From the NCBI GenBank assembly GCA_021647245.1, contig JAKIVC010000014.1, forward strand, positions 1-61,174: 61,174 bases of DNA, given 5' to 3'. Source of the DNA: Gammaproteobacteria bacterium (lineage in GTDB: Bacteria; Pseudomonadota; Gammaproteobacteria; RBG-16-57-12). Position numbers and translations under genes: made by a program. How positions within the stretch are numbered: the stretch's first letter is position 1; every line of letters begins with the position of its first letter. The notes under the pieces were generated by a model. The model was not told the origin of the DNA. It ran no database searches and was given only the letters and a program-made list of their open reading frames with translations. Positions 15,261 through 33,605 of this stretch are shown here, in pieces.

Positions 15261-15661
15261 GGTAGCTGCAAAGAGGGCAAATAGACGACAAATGGGTGCA
15301 AGCGGGAATAACTCATACATTGCGTACAACTTAACTTGTCTATTGATTTAACAGCAAATGTTACCGCCACCACCGGTAGGTTCGGCGACTTTTTTTGGTT
15401 TTAATGTGTAATTAGCAGCTTGTATGCGTATTTCTGTCTGGGGAGTAGGCGTTATTAGGGATGGTCATTAGAAAAAGAGAAAAAAAAGCGGCGAGGAGGA
15501 GCCGCTAAGTATCCGGGGGAGGATGTGGTAGTTACTTTTTTGTTCTTCTTTTGTTAAATAGACGTTAGCATATTTTTATCTATTAAGAAACAGCCGTAGA
15601 ACGAGGTGACATAGCGCGGGTTCTCACGAAGAATCGCGGGAACCCGGAAACCCAGCCAAAC
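15261..15661. other. Intergenic region between the 151-bp repeat and mscS
   Basis: 400 bp without a gene. The only clear structures are a terminator-like hairpin at 15481-15506 and an imperfect stem CGGGTTC/GAACCCG at 15617-15646. I see no recA fragment. Confidence 0.6.
15481..15506 (-). terminator. Rho-independent terminator downstream of mscS
   Basis: On the minus strand AGCGGC-(8 nt)-GCCGCT is followed by seven or eight T residues. It is 155 bp past the mscS stop and is the only T-tailed hairpin in the gap. Confidence 0.75.
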
Positions 15662-32417: not shown

Positions 32418-32636
32418 CAACAAAACTTGTGACGCGCATCTCAAAACAGTGACTATTGTCGTTACTACTCTCAATATGGGTTTGTATGGATATACCTTAT
32501 TGTGATAGATATAATGAATAAAAATAATATATACGCATAAACAGAAACACCATACCACTTACTAGGCTAACCTGGATATTTCGTGGAGTTGCACAAAGAG
32601 TATTGGCCTTACAGGTAAATTACCGAGTAAGCACAC
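32418..32636. other. AT-rich intergenic region upstream of the IscR-like gene
   Basis: Together with the repeat arm at 32637-32686 this makes a 344-bp gap. It is AT-rich around 32485-32540 and may hold a promoter, but I see no confident -35/-10 pair or IscR-type operator. Confidence 0.4.
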
Positions 32637-32686
32637 CGTATTACTGAATTACGGACGATAGCGGAAATAGCTCCTGTGGAGTCAAT
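32637..32686. repeat. Inverted repeat arm, left of the IscR-like gene
   Basis: The reverse complement aligns to 33345-33393 with about 80% identity and one gap. Both share the blocks TCCACAGGA and CCGCTATCGTCCGT. The arms point at each other across the 495-bp regulator gene. Confidence 0.75.
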
Positions 32687-32761
32687 GAACAAGCGAAATT
32701 GTGCGGAATTTATGAAATATTCAGGCTAGGGTAAGATATATATAGGAACATGGGGGAAGTC

Positions 32762-33256
32762 ATGAAGCTGTCTAAAAAAGGACGATACGCAGTTACTGCG
32801 ATTATGGATTTGGTACTAAAAGCACCTTTTGGTCCAACAACACTCAATAACATATCGGTTAGCCAGGAAATTTCCATGTCATACATGGAGCAACTCTTTG
32901 CGCGACTACGCAAGCATGATCTTGTTCAGGGTACTCGTGGCCCAGGTGGAGGTTACCGCCTCGCACGGCCTGCGAATGAGATCACCATTGCACAAGTGCT
33001 GGAAGCCGTAGATGATGATGCTGGTGCGCTTAACAATGGTAATAAAAGTGTTACCGATCTCAGTCATCTACTCTGGGATGAGCTTAGCCGAAAAGTCGCA
33101 CGTTATCTGGATAGCATTACCATTCAGGATCTTCTAGACCAATCAGGCTACGCCGAAGAGGCAGCACGCGCCGAGCAATCCACTGAAAAACCACTGGTGG
33201 GCGTAACAGATCAGTCCAGCACTTTAAATCAAACTAAACGTCTTAGCTCCCACTAA
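32762..33256 (+). CDS. Rrf2/IscR-like transcriptional regulator lacking cysteines
   Basis: 164 residues from ATG 32762 (SD GGGGGAAG). It has the IscR winged helix: 'MKLSKKGRYAVTAIMDLVL', 'ISVSQEISMSYMEQLFARLRKHDLVQGTRGPGGGYRLAR', and 'EITIAQVLEAVDDDAG'. In IscR the following loop holds three cysteines for a [2Fe-2S] cluster. Here it reads 'ALNNGNKSVTDLSHLLWDELS', and the whole protein has no cysteine. It cannot bind the cluster in the usual way and would act like apo-IscR or respond to something else. No isc/suf genes are adjacent. The gene stands alone, framed by a ~50-bp inverted repeat. Confidence 0.88.
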   Translation: MKLSKKGRYAVTAIMDLVLKAPFGPTTLNNISVSQEISMSYMEQLFARLRKHDLVQGTRGPGGGYRLARPANEITIAQVLEAVDDDAGALNNGNKSVTDLSHLLWDELSRKVARYLDSITIQDLLDQSGYAEEAARAEQSTEKPLVGVTDQSSTLNQTKRLSSH

Positions 33257-33344
33257 ATACCGCTTAAAAGGGTGGTCTTTAGCGCACCCCATTCATCGGA
33301 AGGGGTGCTTGGCTGTTCAGTAACTTATCCTCTCTTACTTATCT

Positions 33345-33393
33345 ATTGATTCCACAGGAACTACTCCGCTATCGTCCGTCACTCAGTGATGCG
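33345..33393. repeat. Inverted repeat arm, right of the IscR-like gene
   Basis: Partner of 32637-32686. The spacing of the two arms (about 660 bp) just encloses the regulator gene. Confidence 0.75.
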
Positions 33394-33580
33394 AATCCAG
33401 GGGCTGCCACAGTGCCACGAAATGAACAGATATGAGTTGTGCCTGTCGGTGCGGTGATTATTATTTTTTATTGTGGAATCGGCAGTTTGTGTAGCATGCG
33501 TGCGGCTATTTAAGCGTTAGGGTGGTGGTTAGGGATTTACATTATTGTTATATCCGATATAAAATGGTGGATTAACGGAT
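33394..33580. other. Intergenic region upstream of argD
   Basis: Part of a 414-bp gap between the IscR-like gene and argD. Besides the repeat arm it has a hairpin GCACCCC/GGGGTGC at 33284-33308 after the regulator and a T-tailed hairpin at 33581-33605. No ArgR box is obvious. Confidence 0.4.
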
Positions 33581-33605
33581 AGGCAGCTTTTAGCGCTGCC
33601 TTTTG
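33581..33605 (+). terminator. Terminator or attenuator hairpin before argD
   Basis: GGCAGC-TTTTAGC-GCTGCC followed by TTTTGT on the plus strand, 66 bp before the argD start. It may end transcription from upstream or act as a leader attenuator. Confidence 0.65.

Follow-up and report, generated by a model that had tools for sequence, protein, structure and literature searches.

IscR is the textbook regulator whose cluster decides which DNA is read. In Escherichia coli, apo-IscR binds type 2 and not type 1 sites, with E43 as the discriminator (PMC5411485), and IscR with substituted cysteines continues to bind and regulate type 2 targets (PMC4055776). The IscR of Rhodobacter sphaeroides has one cysteine and still ligates its cluster (PMC4618611), and a survey of the Rrf2 family says only that the three cysteines are present in the majority of homologues (PMC9973013). 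Rrf2 proteins without a cofactor also exist; one of them, CymR, is in complex with an enzyme when it binds DNA (PMC9338935, PMC5411485). No description of a cysteine-less IscR paralog or of a ligandless IscR group was found in the open literature searched.

The window, by which we mean the whole stretch of 61,174 nucleotides that was analyzed, corresponds to contig 14 of a draft genome (G000, 2.57 Mb, 99.5% complete) whose nearest named genomes are those of uncultured Chromatiales/Gammaproteobacteria. An ORF spans 32750-33256, and its likely start is the ATG at 32762, which has GGGGGA upstream and opens the MKLSKKGRYA segment kept in relatives. The gene and the candidate signals around it are:

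32762..33256, + strand: gene for a cysteine-less IscR-type (Rrf2) regulator of 164 aa (ORF, PF02082, TIGR00738, PDB matches, no cysteine, dN/dS)
32487..32515, + strand: candidate promoter TGGATA-17-TATAAT, upstream of the first of two MITE-like repeat copies (consensus scan)
33581..33601, + strand: terminator-like hairpin of seven pairs followed by a T-rich tail, between the window gene and the argD-type gene (consensus scan)

The number of promoter-like consensus matches was not above that in shuffles, and the candidate promoter region is conserved in one congeneric genome (G002) and weakly in the other (G001) in the flank alignment. The leader of the gene gave no Rfam match to a riboswitch or other RNA structure.

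The protein is a genuine Rrf2 member (PF02082, 106.3 bits against a cut-off of 30; TIGR00738 for the superfamily, 109 against 73.3), and its top PDB matches are the E. coli apo-IscR structures 4hf0, 4chu and 4hf1, in which the ligand cysteines are replaced. It scored below the IscR equivalog cut-off (TIGR02010, 147.1 against 207.55), as did, slightly, the canonical IscR of the same genome (204.2), which makes this cut-off by itself a poor guide. The base-reading residues S40, E43 and Q44 and the wing residue R59 are all present. None of the 164 residues is a cysteine, and of the Cys3His ligand set only the His107 equivalent is kept; hence an IscR-type [2Fe-2S] cluster cannot be held. The cluster loop has been replaced, beyond mere mutation. 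The C-terminal region, whose evolution is faster than that of the winged helix, ends in a tail that E. coli IscR does not have, and something else could be bound there. An AlphaFold model built from a four-row alignment was poor (mean pLDDT 51), with the helices in the expected order.

The gene is an orphan, unlinked to isc genes and flanked by an uncharacterized ORF and genes for an AstE-like protein, an ArgD-type aminotransferase and an OTCase. The isc operon lies on contig 16, in the order cysE-iscR (three cysteines)-cysteine desulfurase-iscS-iscU-[IscA-type gene]-hscB-hscA-fdx (names from Pfam matches, the remainder read from the sequences). Two different cysteine desulfurase genes stand in tandem between iscR and iscU (L108, 5029-7458), a pair also found in G001 and G002. 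A third Rrf2 protein is encoded on contig 1, and the window gene has no second copy in its own genome. An earlier note on this DNA, made from its letters alone, had described an IscR-like DNA-binding domain free of cysteine and isolated from isc genes, both of which are confirmed by these results; its view that the protein does not sense through a [2Fe-2S] cluster is supported, and the normal iscR-isc locus that it proposed looking for is the one on contig 16.

Orthologs are present in G002 (93% identity), G001 (82%) and the same-family genome G003 (58%). The G001 and G002 proteins also have no cysteine, and that of G003 has a single one, in "EILCAV", outside the ligand positions. Of 97 IscR-type sequences sampled across the class, 27, from many families, have zero or one cysteine in the ligand region and are called ligandless here. 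S40, E43, Q44, R59, G60 and G63-Y65 are identical in all 27, C92, C98 and C104 are lost, and H107 is missing from 20 and kept in seven, the window lineage among the latter. Wherever both IscR types were read in one genome (17 of 17), a three-cysteine copy coexists with the ligandless one. The tree has two label changes (1-3 across bootstraps, a single origin in 38%), pointing to one or few ligand losses; G003 and the window lineage form a group (99/91) whose deeper placement is poorly supported. The window protein belongs to a large and widespread ligandless IscR group of its class and is not the oddity it was first taken for; its locus is one lineage-specific, orphaned case.

Elsewhere in the group the gene neighborhoods recur. 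iscU lies directly downstream at seven ligandless loci (L015, L024, L055, L149, L154, L157 and L158), and a DUF1249 gene lies upstream of seven others, in most cases with an intervening rhodanese gene (L025, L059, L060, L065, L144, L145 and L151); DUF1249 and rhodanese at L025 and NifU_N at L055 were assigned by Pfam, the other loci by sequence similarity. Three-cysteine relatives at L125, L126 and L142 show the order DUF1249-IscR-iscS-iscU, which suggests where the ligandless group originated. The conserved cluster of DUF1249, rhodanese-type sulfurtransferase and ligandless IscR (L025/L113, L059/L110, L144, L151 and L065) points to a link with sulfur metabolism. A small, apparently secreted protein is encoded near it in L025, L059, L144 and L151, the one in L025 without a Pfam match. 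In two families, related genes with a GELEPCGC motif lie beside ligandless iscR-type genes (L036, 7025-7831; L075, 2400-3824), and the one in L075 includes a cytochrome c554-like region.

Type 1 operators were sought with the E. coli consensus, and an upstream site was called type-1-like at P<=0.05 (the floor of P being 0.005). Such a site precedes 58 of the 69 three-cysteine genes, among them the canonical iscR of the window genome (P=0.005), and 14 of the 27 ligandless genes, near-perfect palindromes being among the sites, for example ATACTTGACTAAAAGAGTCAAGTAT at L149. Clear sites within ~160 nt upstream were seen at L149, L150, L154, L158, L055, L015, L024 and L146, and in most of these cases iscU comes directly after the ligandless gene. 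At loci with such operators, holo-IscR is suggested to repress a second, apo-locked IscR. No type-1-like site was found before the window gene, its two congeneric orthologs or the G003 gene (P 0.55-0.995), nor within 420 nt upstream of the regulator genes of the three genus members.

Genome-wide operator scans, which are pattern searches, gave no match to the strict type 2 consensus in G000 and G002 (reversed control pattern, three and one), and type 2 operators were not above chance upstream of all ligandless genes or across three genomes. None was found before erpA or the window gene. SufB/D and with it a suf operon are absent from the three genomes of the genus, and we rejected suf as a target of the window protein. 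No expected target was thus found, which keeps some weight on another kind of signal or on heterodimers.

With the reading residues intact and the ligands gone, we lean, if only slightly, towards the window gene encoding a cluster-independent, apo-IscR-like DNA-binding IscR paralog, that is, a natural apo-locked IscR. By analogy with the E. coli protein, an IscR reading head without ligands should act as apo-IscR at all times, and the apo-IscR mimic proposed earlier fits the intact recognition residues. The protein would dimerize through the Rrf2 dimerization helix and would bind apo-IscR/type-2-like sites regardless of the cell's Fe-S status; with binding blind to the cluster, output would be set by the amount made and not by cluster occupancy. 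In related lineages, a type-1-like operator, the site of holo-IscR, stands before many ligandless genes, often with iscU next, so that a shortage of clusters would derepress the factor. In the genus of the window no type 1 operator is detectable, and the protein is therefore probably made more constitutively or under other control. Put together as a circuit, in which apo-locked paralogs widespread in Gammaproteobacteria, often placed before iscU, are kept down by holo-IscR acting at type 1 operators and supply a cluster-blind IscR when clusters run short, with the window lineage freed from this control, the idea is tentative and possible rather than probable.

The C-terminal region, remodeled as it is, could instead be where a metabolite or a partner enzyme switches DNA binding, as in a cofactor-free, CymR-like Rrf2 regulator; cysteine, arginine or glutathione metabolism would be examples of the signal. 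The precedent of CymR and the replacement, beyond point mutation, of the cluster loop speak for this, and the missing type 1 operator, which means that the window gene has left the isc circuit, counts on the same side. However, the CymR equivalog score (NF047409) is 86.5, well under its cut-off of 195, the recognition residues are those of IscR, and the neighbors vary between species and so indicate no pathway. We regard this explanation as unlikely, though worth keeping in mind.

A second explanation stays closer to the isc circuit: the protein could modulate canonical IscR, by forming heterodimers with the three-cysteine protein or competing for its sites, and so dampen holo-IscR repression of isc. 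The winged helix common to both proteins, their consistent co-occurrence and the type-1-like operators before ligandless genes elsewhere would suit such a role. E43, however, which bars E. coli apo-IscR from type 1 sites (PMC5411485), is conserved throughout the ligandless proteins. We consider this role improbable.

In each of the three species of the genus the regulator gene is close to glyQS, the interval differing by two genes inserted or lost. Its dN/dS within the genus is 0.04-0.07 overall and 0-0.03 over the winged helix (residues 1-85), comparable to canonical iscR. The window gene is a vertically inherited second IscR-type gene under purifying selection. The lost operator, the orphan position and the repeat inserted in the leader could be taken for signs of a decaying paralog without function, but purifying selection is strong at near-saturated synonymous distances and the ORF is intact in the genus (three species) and in G003, making decay very improbable; a pseudogene was rejected on dN/dS.

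The inverted arms around the gene (32637-32686 and 33345-33393), reported earlier as 50 bp and ~80% identical, are real: they share 84% identity over 50 columns with one gap, and their local alignment scored 58 against a maximum of 31 in 300 shuffles. Searching the genome with either arm, as had been proposed, led to many other places. With a full-length family member of ~169 bp, the three genus genomes gave 30, 14 and 24 matches; G003 gave none. The repeat is imperfectly palindromic, with the ends YTAACCCGGAYAATTCAT...ATGAAATRTCCGGGTTAR, and its copies carry TTAA/CTAA-like ends. It is short and non-coding, has many dispersed copies and terminal inverted repeats, and is MITE-like in these respects. 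The two copies at the locus are:

32567..32729, - strand: MITE-like repeat copy 1, 163 bp, holding the left arm (G002 alignment, G001 empty site, family consensus and termini)
33320..33430, + strand: MITE-like repeat copy 2, truncated/diverged, holding the right arm (family match 33333-33385; outer limits approximate)

Copy 1 sits in the 5′ leader, between the promoter-like region and the ribosome-binding site, and is shared with G002, G001 having the empty site. Copy 2, which is in the opposite orientation to copy 1, aligns with dispersed copies and is absent downstream of the G002 ortholog. The dispersed matches and this distribution identify the arms as parts of two independent insertions in opposite orientation, MITE-like and unrelated to carriage of the gene; the leader copy may modulate expression of the window gene. 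That the arms delimit a small mobile element with the gene as cargo, as the earlier note had suggested, is given next to no credence and was rejected: the arms do enclose the gene, but they are internal to two repeat copies with their own termini, the gene is present both in G002, where the left copy stands alone, and in G001, where both copies are missing, the gene is single-copy in its genome, and it was inherited in three species and, more diverged, in G003. The same note had named, as speaking against its picture, a sole IscR of the genome conserved at this site without the repeats in all relatives; a three-cysteine copy exists in the genome, the repeats are missing in G001, and G002 has the left one.

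A further partial copy of the repeat lies at 15308-15365 of the window. The canonical iscR, too, has an apparent short deletion derivative in its 5′ leader (contig 16, L001, ~1355-1415); none is seen at the corresponding position of G001 and G002. Another family of dispersed repeats, containing GGCTGTCGGACT (L035 upstream of the ortholog, L041 and L052), adjoins several MITE-like copies.

A conserved group in many families that has the reading surface and no cluster would separate in nature the two functions of IscR. It would be the native counterpart of the laboratory apo-locked mutants and would show how circuits of Fe-S homeostasis are rewired after duplication; it would also be a warning for annotation, many "IscR" genes being unable to sense clusters.

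Compared with E. coli IscR (4hf0, 4hf1 and 4chu, apo-locked Cys variants), the window protein has the same winged helix, dimerization helix and S40/E43/Q44/R59, at 38% identity over the aligned length. It differs in lacking C92, C98 and C104, in its replaced cluster loop and in a longer, unrelated tail, and its gene is an orphan without a type 1 operator. Its closest cysteine-bearing relatives are the three-cysteine second IscR proteins of Gammaproteobacteria (e.g., L125, L126 and L142; 47-53% identity for L009 and L062), which are likewise the second IscR of their genomes but keep the three ligands, have type-1-like operators and in many cases are linked to isc genes, none of which holds for the window gene. 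With CymR of Bacillus/Staphylococcus it shares the absence of an Fe-S cofactor in an Rrf2 regulator, whereas its recognition helix is of the IscR type and it falls below the CymR equivalog cut-off. Like the IscR of R. sphaeroides, it is without the usual three cysteines; unlike that protein, it has none at all.
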